Under the pieces are notes generated by a model. It made no database searches and had not been told where the DNA came from. It was given only the letters and a program-made list of their open reading frames with translations. The translations under genes and the position numbers were made by a program. Of a DNA stretch of 64,000 bases, positions 45,477 to 54,128 are shown piece by piece. The stretch comes from Flammeovirgaceae bacterium SG7u.111 (GTDB lineage Bacteria; Bacteroidota; Bacteroidia; Cytophagales; Flammeovirgaceae). Position 1 is the first letter of the stretch; each line of letters opens with the position of its first letter. The stretch covers positions 2,309,635-2,373,634 of the forward strand of contig CP139021.1 in assembly GCA_034044135.1 (NCBI GenBank), given 5' to 3'.

Positions 45477-48341
45477 TTGCCATTGAAACTACCTAAAAGC
45501 GCATTTATACAAATATTCTCACAAAATAGCGGTTTTTTTCTACCTGTTATACCATTCTTGTTCGTTAAAAAGTTTTGCCTTAGTACTGCTAAGCCTGTAT
45601 TTTTTGCCTCCGATAATAGCATAACAGCTCACGAACCTAAACCGACATTTTATAAGCAAATTTGTATCATTTTTTGTGGAGCTTTTCTTCTGCTTTTTAC
45701 TGTGGAAGAAAGAGCTGAGGCCCAGTCTTTTCCTCTTGATAAAAAGATGGAAATCGCTCAGGCTAACTTGAGTGCAGAAGACTTGATTTTGCAAATAGAA
45801 GAGCAATCGAAGTTTAGGTTTATTTATACGAATGAACTTTTAAAGGGATTGCCCTCTCTTCAGCTCGCCAACAAACAACATACGGTTGAAGAACTATTGG
45901 CTCTCACCGAAACTCAAGTTGGGGTTACTTATCAGCAAAAAAGGAATTTGCTGATCCTTTCCAAGGCTCAAAAAAAAGTGAAAGTAGTAGAGCCACAGCT
46001 TTTTGTGATCAGTGGGTTCATAAAGGAAGCGGAGTCAGAGGAAACGTTGATTGGGGCGACGATGTTGGCTATTTCTTCTTCGGGCGAGAGGAAAGGCGCT
46101 GTTTCAAATCCTTATGGCTTCTATTCCATTACCCTGCCCGAAGACACGTACCAAATTATTTATTCTAACATAGGCTTTTATGCCGATACTTTCGAGTTAG
46201 ATCTTACTGGGAACATACGGCTCAATTGGTTCATGCAGCCTTTCAGCAAACGGCTCGCAGAAGTGACGGTTATTGCTGATCAGGAAATGGAAGCGAACTT
46301 GGAGCAGGTTCAAATGAGCACGCATAGGCTGGATATGAAGAAGATTGGGAAAATACCTTATTTATATGGTGAGGTAGATGTGATTCGGGCATTGGGGAAT
46401 TTGCCAGGGGTGAGTACGGTGGGGCAGGTGTCTACCGGGTTTAATGTAAGGGGAGGGAGTGTCGATCAAAACCTTATTTTTCTCGACGATGCTCCTGTTT
46501 ATTATACCAGCCATTTTTATGGACTGGTCTCTGTTTTTAACTCAGATGTGGTGAAAGATGCGAAGATTTATAAAGGTAGTATACCTGCTCGGTTTGGTGG
46601 GAGCTTGTCTTCGGTAACGGAGATTTGGCAGAGAGAAGGGAGTAATGAAGAGCTTGTGGTGAGTGGAGGAGTTGGTGTGATTTCTACACGGCTTTCTGTA
46701 GAAGGGCCAATCAAAAAAGACAAAAGCACTTTCTTGATTTCGGGCAGAACGGCGTTTTCAGACCTGTCAAACATTGGGCTGAGGAATACAGGCTTAAGTA
46801 ATGTGGGAGGAGATTTTAATGATTTAAATTTAAAACTGAACTATAAGCTTAATTCGAAAAACAGGTTATACCTCTCTGGGTTTTATGGGTTTGATGAATC
46901 GAAATTGGAGAATGGGGAAGATTATCAATGGGGGAATATCAATGGAAGTTTTCGGTGGAATAGAGTTTATAACCGAAGCCTTTTCTCCAACTTTACGGCA
47001 GTTTATAGCCGCTATGAATATAGCGCATTGGATTTTGATGGAATTAACGATTCGGAGCTTTTTTCCAAGCTGGCGAGCTACCGTCTCAAAGATGATTTTA
47101 CTTGGTTTAAATCATCGAAACATACCTTCAATTTTGGTGGGCAATTGATTTTTCATGAGTTTTCCCCGGGTACTTTTGTAAAAGAAAATGTGGATTTGAA
47201 AAAGGAGTTGGCTTTGCAAAGAGAACATGGGGTAGAGGCAGCTCTGTATTTTACTGATGAATGGAAATTTTCTGAAAAGCTTAGCGTCGATTATGGTTTG
47301 AGGTATTCAGGGTTGTTCAATTTAGGACCTTCTGAAGTATATGTCTACGGACCTGAAGGACCTGTGGTTGGAGAACCTATTGATACGTTGAGTTTGGGCA
47401 AGGGCGAGTTGGTTAAAGCCTACCACGGTCCAGAACCTCGCTTGGCTGTTAGGTATAGGTTTTCCCCTGAAAAAGGGGTGAAGTTCTCCTATAATCGTCA
47501 TCGGCAATATATACATTTGGTCTCAAACTCGACAAACGTGTATCTTACGGATGTATGGAAGCTGAGCAATACGCATATAAAACCTCAAATTAGCGATCAG
47601 GTTTCTATAGGTTATTTCCAGAATTTTAAAGACAAATCTATTGATGCTTCGGTAGAGGTTTACTTCAAAAATATGCAAAACGTGCTGGAGTATAAGGACG
47701 GGGCTGAGTTGGTGCTCAACCAGCGGGTAGAAAAGGATTTGCTTTCCAACAGAGGAGTAGCCTATGGCTTGGAGTTTATGGTCAACTGGAATACTGATAA
47801 GTTTGAGGGAATGTTGGCTTATACGCTTTCGCGATCTCAAAGAAAAACTTTGGGTGAGTTTGAGCAAGAGCAGATAAATAAGGGTGAGTTTTACCCATCA
47901 AATAGTGATAGGCTTCATGATTTGAAAGTGTTGGGCACTTATCACCTGAATGATAAATGGAGTTTTTCTGCCACATTTACTTATGCTACTGGCAGGCCTA
48001 TTACTTTGCCCGATTCTCGTTTTGTATTTGAGGGTAAGGCTATCCCAAATTTTTCGGATAGAAACCAAGACAGGCTTCCTTCCCATCATAGGCTCGATTT
48101 GACTGCCGTGATGCGTGGACGAGTAATTAAGAAAAAAGGGAAAAATGCTGGGAAATTGAAGCGTACACAAGGCTATTGGGTATTTTCCCTCTACAATGTG
48201 TATGCTAGGGAAAATACTTTCTCGGTAAATTATAGCCGTGACCCAAATGATCCTTCGAAGGGACAGCTAGAGCAATTTTATATTTTCAAAACTATCATTC
48301 CATCAGTTACTTATAATTTCAAGCATACAGGTAGGAAGTAG
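45477..48341 (+). CDS. TonB-dependent receptor with N-terminal STN-like domain
   Basis: Up to 954 residues. A hydrophobic signal segment at about 61-75 ends in AEAQ (residue 83), followed by an STN-like domain (about 91-160), a carboxypeptidase-like domain (about 172-255), plug with GEVDVIRALGNLPGVSTVGQ and FNVRGGSVDQNLIFLDDAPV, and a barrel to the C-terminus. The start is uncertain: no ATG occurs in frame before residue 91, so translation would begin at a TTG (45477, 45483 or 45558). The domain set is that of a transducer to an anti-sigma factor, but no sigma/FecR genes are adjacent. The cargo is unknown. It is divergent from the receptor at 42856. Confidence 0.82.
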   Translation: MPLKLPKSAFIQIFSQNSGFFLPVIPFLFVKKFCLSTAKPVFFASDNSITAHEPKPTFYKQICIIFCGAFLLLFTVEERAEAQSFPLDKKMEIAQANLSAEDLILQIEEQSKFRFIYTNELLKGLPSLQLANKQHTVEELLALTETQVGVTYQQKRNLLILSKAQKKVKVVEPQLFVISGFIKEAESEETLIGATMLAISSSGERKGAVSNPYGFYSITLPEDTYQIIYSNIGFYADTFELDLTGNIRLNWFMQPFSKRLAEVTVIADQEMEANLEQVQMSTHRLDMKKIGKIPYLYGEVDVIRALGNLPGVSTVGQVSTGFNVRGGSVDQNLIFLDDAPVYYTSHFYGLVSVFNSDVVKDAKIYKGSIPARFGGSLSSVTEIWQREGSNEELVVSGGVGVISTRLSVEGPIKKDKSTFLISGRTAFSDLSNIGLRNTGLSNVGGDFNDLNLKLNYKLNSKNRLYLSGFYGFDESKLENGEDYQWGNINGSFRWNRVYNRSLFSNFTAVYSRYEYSALDFDGINDSELFSKLASYRLKDDFTWFKSSKHTFNFGGQLIFHEFSPGTFVKENVDLKKELALQREHGVEAALYFTDEWKFSEKLSVDYGLRYSGLFNLGPSEVYVYGPEGPVVGEPIDTLSLGKGELVKAYHGPEPRLAVRYRFSPEKGVKFSYNRHRQYIHLVSNSTNVYLTDVWKLSNTHIKPQISDQVSIGYFQNFKDKSIDASVEVYFKNMQNVLEYKDGAELVLNQRVEKDLLSNRGVAYGLEFMVNWNTDKFEGMLAYTLSRSQRKTLGEFEQEQINKGEFYPSNSDRLHDLKVLGTYHLNDKWSFSATFTYATGRPITLPDSRFVFEGKAIPNFSDRNQDRLPSHHRLDLTAVMRGRVIKKKGKNAGKLKRTQGYWVFSLYNVYARENTFSVNYSRDPNDPSKGQLEQFYIFKTIIPSVTYNFKHTGRK

Positions 48342-48367: not shown

Positions 48368-50410
48368 TTAATTTTCTCCATTAAGTTTCTTCTTTAATGC
48401 TTCCAAGGTCGGGATCATCAAAAACATGTTGAAATCTTTGTCCTCCATTTCTTGGGTAAGTTGCTCGTAAGGGATAAGTTGGTCATGGATTTTCAAGTCA
48501 TCTTTTAATAGCTTTTTTGCCTTCGAATTATCGGAGGGAAATTTTCCATACCTAAAGCGGAAAGCTAGCTTTTCGGAGCACCAGCGGGCATGCTCAACAG
48601 GAGCGAAGATTTTATAATAGGGTTTCACTGTTCCTTTGCTTATCACCCTATGTCCCATTTTTCTTATAAAAGCGGTTTTGGTGTTGAGGTGGCGGGCTAC
48701 ATACCTGTTCGATTCTTGTTTGATGTCGGTAAGGTCGTTCCAACGATAGTTGATGGCAAAGAGTGGCTTTAAGCTTCTTTTATCTCTGCCAAGTGCGTTG
48801 GAAATGACTGACAAAACAGCGTCTTCTAAGTCGTTCAACGGATTGTCCGAAGTGAATTCTACATTGATGAAAGCATTTTCCGCTTCGTCCAAAACCTTAT
48901 CGGTCAGGAGGGCTGATTCTTTTTCATCCAGTAAATACCTGAACTCATATTTCATGGAGTAGAAATAATTGATCACTTTGGAAAGTGTATCAATGGTGTC
49001 GAGTTGGTCTATCAGTTTTGTTTTGGTGCAAGTATCTGTAAAGAGCCTTACAAAATTGATGTTGAGGTCGTGCTTTAGCGAGTCGTAAAGTTCGGTAGTG
49101 CCGCCTTCGCTTTGTAGCTTGTCGGGGTTGAGAAGGGCAAGGGCACGTGTTTTTTCAGGTAGGCAAGTAACAATGGGGGTGTCATTAAGGTCGCCAATAG
49201 AGGAGTACAAGAGTTGGCGGAACGAATTGGACATACCGATGAGTTTAGCATCATTGTCCCCAAAAATGTAGACTCCGCTCAGGAGTTTGAGTTTTTTTAT
49301 AAAACTATTGGAAGAATAAGAGCTGCTGTAGAATACTTCGTCTTCATATTCTATGGTTTCTATATCCAAATAATCTTCTATGAATGGGAACTTGAATTTT
49401 ACTCTCTCATAAACATTTTTAATGTCTTTGTCTATCAAAATCACCTTGAGCCTTTTGAGGCCTGGGCGGTGGCTTAGGATATAATTTTCGAGCAAGAACA
49501 TTTCCGCTGTTCTGTTCAAACCAAGTATCAGAATAGCATTGTCGGTGCTTTTTACTTGTTTTATCTTTCCTTCCTCGTCTTTTACAGTTTCATAATCTAC
49601 ATTGCTGAGGGGAGGGTAGGTGTCATAAATTAATTTAGCTGCGGCCAGATCGGCATTGAACGCATCAATATCAAACTTATTGGTGCGGTTGTATTTATCC
49701 ATGTAGTCTTTGAGGAAATTGTTGTTCTCCCTTCCTTCTACATAAATAAGTACTTTCAGTTCATTGTCGAAAACGAGAGTTCGGTTGAGCCAGCTGAGTA
49801 GGTTTGCCGTTTGCATATTGTCTTCGTCGTTGATGCCCAACACAAGGCAGTACTTTGCCCGTTTAATTCCTGCACGGATAAGATCAGAGCTCATGGAATC
49901 GGACGCCCCCAGTAATTTTCCTCCCATCGAAGAAATTTTCAACAGGTTCTCGTTCACTTTGTCCGCTTTTTCTACAATTACTACTTTTTGCCCATCTGCA
50001 AGTAATTCATTGGCTATTCTGAAACTAATATTGCTATTGCCCAGAATAATACTGTGATCACTGTAAAAATAGCGGGTGATCACACCAGTCCACCAGTTCG
50101 TAACATAGTTCCATGTGTATTGAATGATACCGAAGCCAAGGATAAGTGCAGCAAGAAAACTTGCTAGGATTATCTGCCAGTTTTGGAAGTTAGGCTCTAA
50201 GTTGCCCATCAGGAACATGCCCAAAATAGCGTAAAGAGTATTCCAGAGGTGGAGTTCTTTGTCGTACGTTTCTTCAGATGTTGCATGGAGTGTTTTGTAT
50301 ACTTCCGCATCATAATACCCCCAAAAACCGAGAAGGAAAACTAAGATTATTCCAGTAACAATTACTACTGGGATTAATTGATGATTTTTTTTAATGGGTG
50401 TAGACGACAT
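48368..50410 (-). CDS. Membrane RCK/TrkA-N protein with C-terminal RyR domain
   Basis: 680 residues. Membrane helices at about 13-31, 55-69 and 78-100, then a TrkA-N/RCK Rossmann domain at about 119-240 (SIILGNSNISFRIANELLADG, GASDSMSSDLIRAGIKRAKY), and a second Rossmann unit starting near NAILILGLNRTAEMFLLENY. A RyR domain at about 605-668 contains EHARWCSEKLAFRFRYGKFP and LIPYEQLTQEMEDKDF. TrkA-N domains bind nucleotides and gate or regulate potassium transport; the RyR domain, named from ryanodine receptors, also occurs fused to TrkA-N in bacteria. The membrane part is too short for a full Trk transporter and has no clear TVGYG filter, so it may be a regulatory membrane protein or a reduced channel. 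Convergent with the gene at 45477. Confidence 0.83.
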   Translation of the reverse strand: MSSTPIKKNHQLIPVVIVTGIILVFLLGFWGYYDAEVYKTLHATSEETYDKELHLWNTLYAILGMFLMGNLEPNFQNWQIILASFLAALILGFGIIQYTWNYVTNWWTGVITRYFYSDHSIILGNSNISFRIANELLADGQKVVIVEKADKVNENLLKISSMGGKLLGASDSMSSDLIRAGIKRAKYCLVLGINDEDNMQTANLLSWLNRTLVFDNELKVLIYVEGRENNNFLKDYMDKYNRTNKFDIDAFNADLAAAKLIYDTYPPLSNVDYETVKDEEGKIKQVKSTDNAILILGLNRTAEMFLLENYILSHRPGLKRLKVILIDKDIKNVYERVKFKFPFIEDYLDIETIEYEDEVFYSSSYSSNSFIKKLKLLSGVYIFGDNDAKLIGMSNSFRQLLYSSIGDLNDTPIVTCLPEKTRALALLNPDKLQSEGGTTELYDSLKHDLNINFVRLFTDTCTKTKLIDQLDTIDTLSKVINYFYSMKYEFRYLLDEKESALLTDKVLDEAENAFINVEFTSDNPLNDLEDAVLSVISNALGRDKRSLKPLFAINYRWNDLTDIKQESNRYVARHLNTKTAFIRKMGHRVISKGTVKPYYKIFAPVEHARWCSEKLAFRFRYGKFPSDNSKAKKLLKDDLKIHDQLIPYEQLTQEMEDKDFNMFLMIPTLEALKKKLNGEN

Positions 50411-50722: not shown

Positions 50723-52411
50723 ATGGTTTCACTCGAACCAAGAACAGGTCCATTAGGGCTAAAACTATCAGCACATTTATTGAGGCGGGCGACTTTTGGC
50801 GCTACTCGCAAACAAATTGACGATTTTGCCAATATGACGGCAGCCCAGGCCGTTGCCGAATTATTACAAGCTCCTGAAGAAAAAGCTCCACCTCCTATCG
50901 ACCCCTTGACGGGTTCGCCTTGGATAGATCCTGAAAATAGCGTATTTACGGCAGGAGAAGGAAACAGTGGGGAAGATGAGTTGAAAGATGTTGTATTAGG
51001 ATGGTGGCTTTCGCAAATGGCAAAGTCAGGAATGTCTCTTTCAGAGAAGATGGCTTATTTTTTACACACGCACATTCCTCTTATCCAGTCGCGAATCCAA
51101 AAAAGTGCGGCGCTTTATTATCATATTGAACTATTGAGGTTTTATGGACTTGGCAATTTCAAAGAATTTTCGTTGAAGCTTTGCCTTGATAATGCGATGC
51201 TCCGCCATTTAGATGGATATTTGAATGTGGTTGGCAGGCCTCAGGAAAACTATGCCCGAGAGTTTATGGAGCTGTATACCATAGGGAAAGGGCCTCAGGT
51301 AAGTTCTGATGATTATACCAACTACACCGAACTGGATGTACAAGAAGGTGCAAAAATCCTTTCGGGGTATGGAGAAGACACGAGCTTCAGAAATATAGAT
51401 GAAGATACAGGCTTAGCAGCGGGTGTTATCCAAGGTGGAGAGTGGCAAGGAGATGTGTATGTGGTAACCAGCGCAAAAAAGCACGATGAAAGCACCAAGA
51501 CTCTTTCGGAAAGGTTTCAAAATACGGTGATTGAACCTGCGGAAATAGTGAACGGCAAAGCAACTGCCGAAGCTGCACTGGGTGAACTTCAGCAGTTTGT
51601 AGATGTGATTTTTGATCAAGAAGAAACGGCAAAGCATATTTGCCGAAAACTGTACCGCTTTTTTGTGTACTATAAAATAGATGAGGAAGTAGAAACTGGA
51701 ATCATCGCACCCTTGGCAGAAACATTTAGGGACAACGATTACGATTTTGTTCCTGTGCTTAGCCAACTTCTTCAAAGTCAGCATTTTTATGATGTGGATA
51801 ATGCAGAGTTGAAGGACAATAAGATTGGGGCAATTATCAAATCGCCAATCGAATTGGTGATGGGGATGATCAAGTTTTTCCAAGTAGAGCTTCCAGATGA
51901 TCAATTGGATTATGCGACCCTACTAGACGGCGGGTATAGCAATATCATGAAATATATGAGCGAGCAAGGCATGTCCTTTGTAGAGCCATATGAAGTTGCA
52001 GGATATCCGGCTTACCATCAATTCCCCGTTTTTAACCGTAACTGGATTTCGGCCAATTACCTCGCCCAGCGCTACAAATTTATAGAACATCTTCTCAAAA
52101 AATCGGAGGATGATCCGAACTCTCCTTTGTTGGATATAGTGGCTTATGTGAAGGATACCAACAATATTTCCGACCCGTTTGATCCAGATAAACTAGTGGC
52201 AGAATTGGTCGATTACCTCCTTCCCGAAGGTGTGTCAGACGAAAGGTTTACCTATTTCGTAAATGCTGTTTTGTTAGATAACCTTTCGGTGATCAATTGG
52301 CAGTCTGAATGGCAGCAATACCTCGATAGTGGGGATGATGTGGCGGTGCGAGGGCAGTTGGAAAACCTCTTAAAAGCGATCCTCCAGTCTCCCGAAAGCC
52401 AATTGCAGTAG
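50723..52411 (+). CDS. DUF1800 family protein
   Basis: 562 residues. Opening LSAHLLRRATFGATRKQID and the central AMLRHLDGYLNVVGRPQENYAREFMELYTIG are diagnostic of DUF1800, an uncharacterised family typically encoded next to DUF1501, as here. No signal peptide is seen. The late AGYPAYHQFPVFNRNWISAN block is also typical. The function is not established; the constant pairing suggests a joint role with DUF1501 in envelope or secretion functions. The gene is 58 bases before DUF1501 and presumably shares its transcript. Confidence 0.9.
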   Translation: MVSLEPRTGPLGLKLSAHLLRRATFGATRKQIDDFANMTAAQAVAELLQAPEEKAPPPIDPLTGSPWIDPENSVFTAGEGNSGEDELKDVVLGWWLSQMAKSGMSLSEKMAYFLHTHIPLIQSRIQKSAALYYHIELLRFYGLGNFKEFSLKLCLDNAMLRHLDGYLNVVGRPQENYAREFMELYTIGKGPQVSSDDYTNYTELDVQEGAKILSGYGEDTSFRNIDEDTGLAAGVIQGGEWQGDVYVVTSAKKHDESTKTLSERFQNTVIEPAEIVNGKATAEAALGELQQFVDVIFDQEETAKHICRKLYRFFVYYKIDEEVETGIIAPLAETFRDNDYDFVPVLSQLLQSQHFYDVDNAELKDNKIGAIIKSPIELVMGMIKFFQVELPDDQLDYATLLDGGYSNIMKYMSEQGMSFVEPYEVAGYPAYHQFPVFNRNWISANYLAQRYKFIEHLLKKSEDDPNSPLLDIVAYVKDTNNISDPFDPDKLVAELVDYLLPEGVSDERFTYFVNAVLLDNLSVINWQSEWQQYLDSGDDVAVRGQLENLLKAILQSPESQLQ

Positions 52412-52469
52412 ACTATTCAGTTTAATCTAAAACATTAACCTCGGTTTTTCCGAAAATACTAAAGCTACG

Positions 52470-54128
52470 ATGAAAAGAAGAAATTTTCTCAAACAAGCAG
52501 CAAGTGCGGCTACTGGTCCATTTTTATTAGGAGGAATTCCTATGCACCTTTTTGCTCAAAACAGCCAGTTGAGCAGGATGGCAGCTGCTAGCCCTAACGA
52601 TAAAGTTCTGATTATTTTGCAAATGCACGGCGGGAACGATGGACTCAATATGGTAATTCCCGTAGATCAGTACGATAACTATTATAACCTCAGGCCAAAT
52701 ATTGCCATTCCTCAAAATGGGAATAGAAGTTTTATTGAATTGGATAAAACGATAGCCAAAGAAAAGCAAGTAGGGCTTCATCCTGATATGCTCGGGGTAA
52801 AATCTATGTACGATGAAGGATTGGTGAATATCGTACAAGGGGTTTCTTACGAAAACAACAATGGTTCGCATTTTAGGGGAAGAGATATTTGGTTTATGGG
52901 CGGCAGTTACGATGATTATTTTGGTTCGGGATGGATTGGTCGTTACCTGGATCATACCTACCCAGGTTACCCAGAAGGACCTCCCGCAGCCTATCCAAAT
53001 GCAACTATGCCCGACCCTTTAGGCATCGAAATAGGAACAGGAGTATCTATTGCTTTCCACCGAGAAGATGGAATTCCAGCAGGTTTGGCGGTTCAAAATC
53101 CTCAACAATTTTATGATCTGATCAATAGTGTCGGTGGAGACCCTCCAGGAGATATTGTAGACTCTTTTTATGGAGATGAGCTGAAGTACATTATGGATAT
53201 AGAAAAACAATCTAACCTGTATGCTGCACGACTTAGGGAGGTGTATGAAAACGGTTCAAATAGTAGTGTTACTTACCCTGAAACCTATCCATTGGCGGCT
53301 CCTCAGGGAAGCTTGAAAAATGGTCTTTCTAACCAATTAAAGTTGATTGCCAGGTTGTTGAATGGAGGAATCAAAACAAAAGTTTTTCTTGTCAGAATTG
53401 GTGGGTTCGATACGCACGCTTCGCAAGTTGAAGATTATGATCCTACACTAGGGGCTCATTCAGCACTTCTTTATCATATTTCTTCGGCTATGAAAGTTTT
53501 TCAAGATGACTTGAAAAACTTGGGTATAGATGAAAAAGTGTTGACGATGACCTATTCTGAGTTTGGAAGAAGGGCAAAGTCTAACGGAAGTTGGGGTACA
53601 GATCACGGTACTGCTGCTCCTATGATGCTGTTTGGAAAAGGTGTAACACCGGGAATTATAGGTGACAACCCTGATTTGGCTAACTTAGATAGGAATAATG
53701 TCCCCATGCAATATGATTATCGCCAAGTGCTCGCATCAGTGATGCAGGATTGGTTTGAAGCATCGGATGAGGCTTTGGAAGCAACGCATTTCGACCAGTT
53801 TTCTGGTGAAAAATTGCCTGTGGTAGGAGGGAGTGTTACTTCTACCGATGAGTTTTTCAATGAGCGCTTTAGGTTGGATACTTGCTACCCTAACCCTGTA
53901 AGGACGGAGACTAAAATATCATGGAAGATTAATACTCCTGCCAATGTGACTTTGTCGCTTTTTGATAACTCAGGGAAGAAAGTAAAGGTGATTTATGAAG
54001 GGAAACAGCCCGCAGGTGAGCATGAAGTGATCTTAAATGTAAAAGGACTTACTCCAGGGATGTATTTTTATAGGATAAAAGCAGGTAAGCTTAAAGCTTC
54101 TAAAAAAATGGTGATTATTGGAGGATAA
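52470..54128 (+). CDS. DUF1501 family protein with Tat-like signal and T9SS C-terminal tail
   Basis: 552 residues. The N-terminus MKRRNFLKQAASAATG is a twin-arginine signal with cleavage near LFAQ. The DUF1501 body has MHGGNDGLNMVIPVDQYDNY, IGGFDTHASQ, and the alkaline-phosphatase-fold-like YSEFGRRAKSNGSWGTDHG. A C-terminal domain at about 469-552 (CYPNPVRTETKISW, GLTPGMYFYRI, KASKKMVIIGG) is a type IX secretion sorting tail of the Por_Secre type. The protein is thus predicted to be exported folded and then moved to the surface. Function is unknown. It follows DUF1800 by 58 bases and ends at a terminator. Confidence 0.92.
   Translation: MKRRNFLKQAASAATGPFLLGGIPMHLFAQNSQLSRMAAASPNDKVLIILQMHGGNDGLNMVIPVDQYDNYYNLRPNIAIPQNGNRSFIELDKTIAKEKQVGLHPDMLGVKSMYDEGLVNIVQGVSYENNNGSHFRGRDIWFMGGSYDDYFGSGWIGRYLDHTYPGYPEGPPAAYPNATMPDPLGIEIGTGVSIAFHREDGIPAGLAVQNPQQFYDLINSVGGDPPGDIVDSFYGDELKYIMDIEKQSNLYAARLREVYENGSNSSVTYPETYPLAAPQGSLKNGLSNQLKLIARLLNGGIKTKVFLVRIGGFDTHASQVEDYDPTLGAHSALLYHISSAMKVFQDDLKNLGIDEKVLTMTYSEFGRRAKSNGSWGTDHGTAAPMMLFGKGVTPGIIGDNPDLANLDRNNVPMQYDYRQVLASVMQDWFEASDEALEATHFDQFSGEKLPVVGGSVTSTDEFFNERFRLDTCYPNPVRTETKISWKINTPANVTLSLFDNSGKKVKVIYEGKQPAGEHEVILNVKGLTPGMYFYRIKAGKLKASKKMVIIGG

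Follow-up and report, generated by a model that had tools for sequence, protein, structure and literature searches.

The closest described counterparts of the protein studied here are found among dual-RCK channels, TIR-based defense systems and phage RyR proteins. This protein is encoded by the gene P0001 in a 64,000-nucleotide stretch (hereafter the window, meaning the whole stretch analyzed) of the 7.7-Mb genome of Flammeovirgaceae bacterium SG7u.111, and it joins a transmembrane (TM) hairpin, two RCK units and a C-terminal domain of the ryanodine-receptor (RyR) type. In architecture, the nearest system is GsuK, a Geobacter dual-RCK K+ channel activated by NAD+ and ADP (PMC3510474). It shares with the window protein the order TM1-P-TM2 followed by RCK1-RCK2, is controlled by nucleotides and is the best Foldseek match to our model; unlike this K+ channel, the window family has no T-x-G-Y-G filter and carries an additional RyR domain. 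CASTOR is a dual-RCK Ca2+ channel with an acidic filter residue and no TVGYG filter (PMC6697748). Together with DMI1, it represents plant nuclear Ca2+ channels that resemble the window family in their dual-RCK ring and in lacking TVGYG (VIA-align 2 Z-scores of 14.5 for CASTOR and 15.0 for DMI1). Unlike the window family, both are eukaryotic and Ca2+-regulated, and neither is known to contain an RyR domain.

On the signaling side, Thoeris, especially with the TM-macro form of ThsA, resembles relatives of P0001 in that a TIR enzyme lies beside a membrane protein with a sensor domain for ADP-ribose (ADPR), a putative one in the relatives (PMC11204291). Unlike Thoeris effectors, the RCK-RyR proteins have a putative RyR sensor instead of a macro or SLOG domain, have RCK units as the presumed transducer and match no PADLOC model. 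DUF4062, the domain of the defense system named Swarozyc, is also present in neighbors of some relatives. Finally, the phage protein RyDEP and other RyR (R12) proteins have the same H, W, H and D residues as the window RyR domain, with an H-to-D spacing of 17; RyDEP differs in being a phage glycosidase, and its homologues are sponges, whereas the window RyR domain is the C-terminal module of a membrane protein and has a 10-residue insertion. We read the family as effectors of TIR/DUF4062 signaling because of its architecture, its RyR homology, its conserved ligand residues, the genomic linkage of relatives to TIR or DUF4062 genes and the co-occurrence with TIR genes. For the window protein itself, there is in our view an even chance that it is an RCK-ringed membrane effector of TIR nucleotide signaling whose RyR tip senses ADPR-type signals, with the TIR enzymes encoded elsewhere in the genome.

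Domain architecture and the RyR pocket

The open reading frame (ORF) of P0001 is intact, with its ATG at 50410, its stop at 48368 and no internal stop in 680 codons. A sequence-only reading of the window had placed the gene correctly, and its orientation is added here from the ORF and its translation. The closest named relative is a protein of Flexithrix dorotheae (56% identity). The features of the gene are as follows:

48368..50410, minus strand: RCK-RyR gene P0001, 680 residues, TM1-P-TM2/RCK1/RCK2/RyR (ORF, translation, Pfam)
50321..50377, minus strand: TM1, residues 12-30 by hydropathy (helix 7-34 in the model)
50210..50260, minus strand: pore-like helix, residues 51-67 (low-confidence model helix; alignment and motif test)
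50066..50182, minus strand: TM2, helix 77-115 in the model, membrane part about 78-96 by hydropathy
49616..50059, minus strand: RCK1 (TrkA_N), residues 118-265 (Pfam; structural matches to RCK rings)
49046..49540, minus strand: RCK2, residues 291-455 (model; dual-RCK matches GsuK, CASTOR, DMI1 and KtrA)
48746..49045, minus strand: helical linker, residues 456-555, extended in the window subclade (alignment and model)
48383..48745, minus strand: RyR domain, residues 556-676 (Pfam below threshold, hidden Markov model of relatives, profile-profile alignment)

The AlphaFold2 model of the protein was built from five sequences, with a mean predicted local distance difference test (pLDDT) of 68.2 and a predicted template modeling score of 0.57. 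Where the sequence-only reading had counted three short helices, hydropathy supports two strong TM helices (12-30 and 78-96), and the third is a short helix seen in the model alone (51-67, pLDDT about 52-57). Similarly, the first of the two proposed TrkA-N units exceeds the Pfam cut-off (TrkA_N at residues 121-209, 26.5 bits, cut-off 23.8); the second is not seen by Pfam and appears in the model as one of two Rossmann-like units (120-265 and 291-455), the best structural matches being dual-RCK proteins. Foldseek placed GsuK (E-value 7.2e-8), TrkA, CASTOR and Slo1 first, and of the 34 chains with E-values of at most 0.001, 31 are of the RCK type and three are mannitol-phosphate dehydrogenases. 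Where the GsuK chain contains its membrane part, the alignment extends over residues 7-472 at a root-mean-square deviation of 9.5-10.1 Å, and the geometry of the pore is therefore tentative. Among the top VIA-align 2 rows, which span model residues 20-474 and barely test the remainder, are KtrA (Z 16.0, 259 residues, 3.5 Å), DMI1 (295 residues, 3.9 Å), CASTOR (291 residues, 4.6 Å) and GsuK (Z 13.6, 272 residues, 5.5 Å); only their dual-RCK coverage is meaningful, since ordinary Rossmann dehydrogenases also score above Z 10. A membrane hairpin followed by RCK units is thus present according to hydropathy, TrkA_N, and the second RCK unit of the model with its matches. In agreement with the earlier suggestion of a ligand-gated ion-flow regulator, the best matches of the model (GsuK, CASTOR, Slo, KtrA/TrkA) point in that direction. 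As for the ligand, c-di-AMP binds the TrkA_C domain. Pfam found no TrkA_C match in the window protein at E-values up to 1, and c-di-AMP sensing is therefore unlikely by this usual route.

The C-terminal domain scored 15.1 bits against Pfam RyR (PF02026), below the gathering score of 27.4, so Pfam alone is no proof of its identity; moreover, four close homologues had no Pfam RyR match at E-values up to 0.1. Diverged relatives of the same architecture exceed the cut-off (L013, 41.0; L014, 31.5; L015, 56.8; L016, 43.5; L108, 44.4; L109, 45.4; and L111, 54.5 bits), while L113 from genome G143 (18.7), L081 from S. meliloti (18.2) and L130 from G794 (22.3) fall below it, and L128 from G983 had no match at E-values up to 0.01. 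A hidden Markov model that combined eight RyR domains (one was a stand-alone domain, the others came from relatives) matched the window protein at 36.7 bits and all six window-clade proteins at 36.7-53.5 bits. In addition, hhalign gave a profile-profile score of 78.7, whereas 50 column shuffles reached at most 18.6. The RyR assignment of the sequence-only reading is thereby borne out in spite of the sub-threshold Pfam score. A 13-row RyR profile also retrieved RyR1, RyR2, RyR3 and "putative ryanodine receptor" chains from the PDB, matches which show only that the whole group is RyR, as the profile includes accepted RyR rows. The single-domain chains among them (3nrt, 4n05 and 6uag) are presumably bacterial. 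Together with an RyR protein of B. thetaiotaomicron and the phage RyR proteins described in a preprint (PMC13232231), they speak against the earlier view of RyR domains as otherwise a feature of animal calcium-release channels.

The same preprint bears on the ligand. Phage RyR proteins bind or cleave 2' or 3' cyclic ADPR (cADPR); RyDEP cleaves 2'/3'cADPR and contacts it through H75, W78, H100 and D117, residues that are also conserved in animal R12 domains (PMC13232231). Consequently, the ligand of bacterial RyR domains is less unclear than the sequence-only reading held. All four contact residues of RyDEP and RyR3 R12 (H, W, H and D) are present in the window protein:

48590..48592, minus strand: H607, equivalent to RyDEP H75 (ribose contact, catalytic in RyDEP); H in 13/14 aligned members
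48581..48583, minus strand: W610, equivalent to RyDEP W78 (adenine bracing); W in 14/14 aligned members
48485..48487, minus strand: H642, equivalent to RyDEP H100 (phosphates); H in 12/14 aligned members
48434..48436, minus strand: D659, equivalent to RyDEP D117 (ribose contact, catalytic in RyDEP); D in 12/14 aligned members

The H-x-x-W pattern and the 17-residue spacing of H642 and D659 match RyDEP (H100-D117), the equivalence of the pockets being based on alignment and spacing rather than structure. The window RyR domain may therefore bind an ADPR-type nucleotide. Since H607 and D659 correspond to the catalytic dyad of RyDEP (H75 and D117), the RyR tip might also clear away cADPR-type signals, either as an enzyme like the RyDEP glycosidase or as a sink like the sponges, so that the protein would end TIR signaling. 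We regard this as very improbable: binding of the signals was found for six of eight RyDEP homologues, with no cleavage by those tested apart from the founder (PMC13232231), and a sink needs neither RCK units nor membrane helices.

TIR and DUF4062 genes beside RCK-RyR relatives

Relatives were collected with A1, the window family's own profile, which served for a wide search and for finding diverged relatives. It matched 153 of 395 genomes of the phylum, most of the listed matches covering the TrkA_N or TM-RCK part only and being ordinary channels or TrkA proteins, and a further search matched 109 of 341 genomes, likewise mostly channels. Membership in the family required both RCK and RyR, the latter sometimes recognized by profile A3 only. 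Proteins with RyR only (many of them in genus g94) were set aside before counting, as were the RyR proteins without an RCK channel at locus L112 (genome G582); G461 was left out of the neighbor counts because it is identical to G474 and its contig begins 374 bases before the gene. The resulting 17 loci come from G070, G091, G268, G059, G983, G588, G562, G474, G143, G1029, G794, S. meliloti, Arcobacter, L007, L008, L009 and L011. The window was scanned separately, and the copies of G009 and G011, truncated at contig ends, lie outside the 17 loci, with no listed TIR_2 match on their contigs. The controls were 39 TrkA_N-type loci (TM-RCK channels and TrkA proteins) that these searches had found in other genomes, without pairing to individual RCK-RyR loci.

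A TIR or DUF4062 gene is the immediate neighbor in eight of the 17 RCK-RyR loci. Within 1.5 kb, TIR or DUF4062 was found in 6/17 RCK-RyR loci and in 0/39 control loci (p=3.8e-4, relatedness uncorrected); the two counts differ because in G059 and S. meliloti the domains sit at the far end of a long neighboring gene, beyond 1.5 kb. The matches in the family arise partly by construction, since the two profiles used (TIR and DUF4062) were built partly from these partners and from other TIRs; Pfam confirms the matches. A TIR-WD40 gene overlaps the RCK-RyR gene by 11 bases in G070 and lies 23 bases upstream of it in G059; a TIR gene lies four bases upstream in G268 and, with an in-frame stop, 22 bases away in G091, which belongs to the genus of G070. 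In G983, a TIR_2 and DUF4062 gene follows 32 bases downstream and precedes an nSTAND1 gene, and in G588 a DUF4062-NACHT-TPR gene follows at the same distance. On the S. meliloti plasmid, the overlap with a DUF4062-like TPR gene is four bases (DUF4062 at 23.6 bits, cut-off 24.7), and on the Arcobacter plasmid a DUF4062 gene adjoins separate TrkA and RyR frames. The TIR gene of G143, third upstream, enters neither count.

The partner gene is the genome's single TIR_2 match in G268 and G983, one of two in both G070 and G091, and one of three in G059. A motif for the putative catalytic glutamate of TIRs is present in three of five tested TIR partners and not in those of G268 and G143, the pattern being narrow and made by us. 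DUF4062 reportedly acts as a TIR-like NADase and produces ADPR (PMC13174449). The TIR partner of G268 weakly matches the ThsB models of PADLOC. The position of the relatives beside signal-making enzymes suggests an immune switch that acts on the cell membrane.

Origin from phages or plasmids was considered and rejected. One scan of viral contigs with A1 confirmed no relative. When the G268 protein was used instead, three short matches, to RyR only, came from phage records and three partial ones from plasmids, and two of the plasmid matches are RCK-RyR loci.

Several further loci were observed during these searches. The G474 locus contains a 194-residue gene without Pfam match and a second RyR gene. 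At L111 (4459-7066), the RCK-RyR gene lies beside a 194-residue gene without Pfam match, whose start looks SLOG-like by eye, and a 672-residue protein that matches RyR twice and AAA below threshold. Locus L112 (G582, contig C91, 15000-34000) carries a TIR-NB-ARC-TPR gene, a sub-threshold SLATT-like gene, a gene in which RelA/SpoT, LSDAT (TRPM-type SLOG) and RyR are fused (RyR just under the cut-off), an RyR gene whose AAA part is weak and, by eye, one more TIR-like gene. At L129 (7686-10224), in a genome with no TIR_2 match, a TM-RCK-like gene with an RyR-like C-terminus is overlapped at its start by a stand-alone RyR protein of 105 residues (126.7 bits). On a Methylobacterium plasmid (L083), a 910-residue RyR-domain protein has a SIR2-family protein gene and a transposase in its vicinity.

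The window lineage and its gene neighborhood

In an 18-row tree, the window protein groups with L007, L008, L009, L011 and G983 at 100/100, and thus a TIR-linked member falls inside the window subclade. The seven genomes with orphan copies all hold 15-26 TIR_2 matches (G000, the genome of the window, 25; G003, 26; G007, 24; G009, 15; G011, 22; G1128, 20; and G1129, 18), the count for G000 being 22 in the phylum-sample scan, where fewer candidates were scored. In 13 genomes of this bacterial family that lack the gene, the counts are 0, 4, 0, 0, 1, 0, 0, 0, 0, 1, 0, 0 and 0, and only one of 182 other genomes in the phylum sample reaches 15 (G226, with 19). Two metagenome-assembled genomes, G1129 of the Bacteroidales and G1128 of the Cytophagales, fit the pattern of orphan copy and TIR richness.

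The TIR density of G000 is unusual. Seven of its ORFs (L131, L132, L133, L134, L135, L136 and L137; 1152-1554 residues) have three tandem TIR matches each; of five examined with Pfam, four have WD40 repeats and the fifth has WG repeats together with an FGE-sulfatase domain. An S-x-x-C-x-x-E motif around the putative catalytic glutamate is found in 19 of the 21 TIR units of these seven ORFs.

Next to P0001, a gene of the TonB-dependent-receptor type (45477-48341) is convergent with it, and on the other side lies a divergent pair:

50723..54128, plus strand: DUF1800/DUF1501 gene pair, divergent from P0001 (Pfam)

The DUF1501 gene carries a secretion-system sorting domain. A DUF1800-like neighbor of the RyR gene is kept in the close relatives L002/L007, L003/L011, L005 and L006 (by eye), a case of conserved synteny with no evident role in the mechanism. 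Farther away, positions 1-40000 of the window form a polysaccharide-utilization region with several SusC/SusD-like, glycosidase, sulfatase and rhamnose/fucose-type sugar genes (by eye), in which rhaM was confirmed by Pfam.

Proposed mechanism, alternatives and meaning

In the mechanism that we propose, four subunits would probably surround a TM1-P-TM2 pore, with a cytoplasmic RCK ring as in GsuK or CASTOR and the RyR domains at the C-terminal end. A TIR or DUF4062 enzyme, triggered for example by phage, would turn NAD+ into ADPR, 2'cADPR or 3'cADPR; the nucleotide would bind to the RyR pocket (H607, W610, H642 and D659) and move the RCK ring, whereupon the pore may open or the membrane may be damaged, and the cell would stop. 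The putative enzyme is an immediate neighbor in roughly half of the family loci studied. In the orphan group of the window, the effector probably serves TIRs in trans, possible candidates being the triple-TIR proteins that carry WD40 or WG repeats, and this trans action is the weakest step of the reading.

A number of observations weigh against this mechanism, and the first concern the pore. Helix 51-67 leads into a filter-like loop (MFLMGNLEP) without K+ signature, and a T-x-G-[YF]-G filter was found in none of 15 members within the first 130 residues (14 have the segment and G983 does not), for which reason membership among the K+ channels was rejected. In addition, the G983 and Arcobacter relatives show a single N-terminal membrane helix before RCK1 (by eye). 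With the filter absent in all 14 members that have the segment and one membrane helix in these two, a pore does not appear to be universal in the family. These features would suit a membrane-anchored effector without a pore, in which nucleotide binding clusters the TM helices and damages the membrane, as proposed for the TM-macro ThsA of Thoeris, where nucleotide-induced TM clustering has its precedent (PMC11204291). We consider this version distinctly unlikely, because the window protein has a TM1-P-TM2 layout with the modeled helix 51-67, position 60 is aromatic (Y in 13 of 14 aligned members and F in one), the filter-like loop holds an acidic residue in all 14, and a weak likeness to K+ channel membrane parts exceeds shuffles (28.8 for the profile against 12 K+ channels, with a maximum of 20.3 in 20 shuffles), its 37 aligned columns running from TM1 no farther than the start of the pore helix.

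The RyR domain itself is divergent. In the window clade, 10 additional residues separate the two pocket histidines (spacing 35, compared with 25 in RyDEP) and the usual GW pair is missing, both of which may explain the weak Pfam score, and the model of the window RyR domain is poor (mean pLDDT 48.7 for RyR alone; below 50 at residues 615-622 and 634-648 of the full model). PADLOC-DB 2.0.0 assigned no family to any of eight RCK-RyR proteins tested (the window protein and seven relatives), and the loci of G562, G474, G1029 and G794 had no TIR or DUF4062 match within 1.5 kb.

Other observations against the proposed mechanism come from the window lineage. No TIR or DUF4062 match was found in the whole 64-kb window, L007, L008 or L011, so that the TIR link of the window gene is one of co-occurrence only; L009, a 5.9-kb contig, had none within 1.5 kb. 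A TIR gene adjacent to the effector, the criterion used for Thoeris, is found in G070, G091, G268, G059 and G983 and not at the window gene. The co-occurrence is also less strong than the by-genome p of 5e-4, an overstated value given that the five carriers of the same family fall in three genera; counted by genus within this family, at least 15 TIR_2 matches occur in 3/3 with the gene and 0/5 without (p=0.018). Nor is TIR richness a trait of the whole subclade, as the TIR-linked G983 has one TIR_2 match. Moreover, the constant DUF1800-like neighbor points to vertical inheritance and not to mobility, and by eye none of the window ORFs of at least 150 residues was recognizable as a defense gene. 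The orphan position with its kept DUF1800-like neighbor and the lack of TIR, DUF4062 or recognizable defense genes in the window would be expected if the protein were a vertically inherited nucleotide-sensing channel or regulator of ordinary physiology (NAD+/ADPR-sensing, similar to CASTOR or GsuK), outside immunity, with the TIR links of relatives being irrelevant here, and its best structural matches are indeed physiological channels and transporters. We judge this rather unlikely, though to be taken seriously: G983, which groups with the window protein, sits in a TIR/DUF4062-nSTAND1 cluster, and the genomes with orphan copies are TIR-rich in seven of seven cases.

Every single domain of the proposed TIR-linked effector is already known; what we call new is a TIR nucleotide-signaling system with a channel-like RyR effector. 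The main text of the preprint on Swarozyc makes no mention of RyR, TrkA, RCK or a channel, a survey of NAD+/ADPR systems in viruses (PMC9503650) makes none of ryanodine, RyR or TrkA, and among the matches listed, titles and abstract openings described no pairing of TIR or DUF4062 with an RCK-RyR protein, most subscription papers lying outside this coverage. The TIR/DUF4062 linkage of the family likely moves its meaning from ion homeostasis to nucleotide immune signaling. A bolder extension, which we put forward tentatively and hold to be doubtful, is that the family is a bacterial counterpart of the animal cADPR-ryanodine-receptor axis, in which RyR domains on an RCK-ringed membrane channel would read an ADPR-type messenger from TIR or TIR-like NADases, and that the channel of the window lineage is a hub shared in trans by many triple-TIR proteins, forming an immune network of many sensors and one effector. 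If the TIR-effector reading is true, TIR nucleotide immunity would gain a channel-like class of effectors, bacterial RyR domains would have the role of receiving what phage RyR proteins intercept, and a small bacterial system would allow a test of the long-standing question whether cADPR-type messengers are read by RyR domains.

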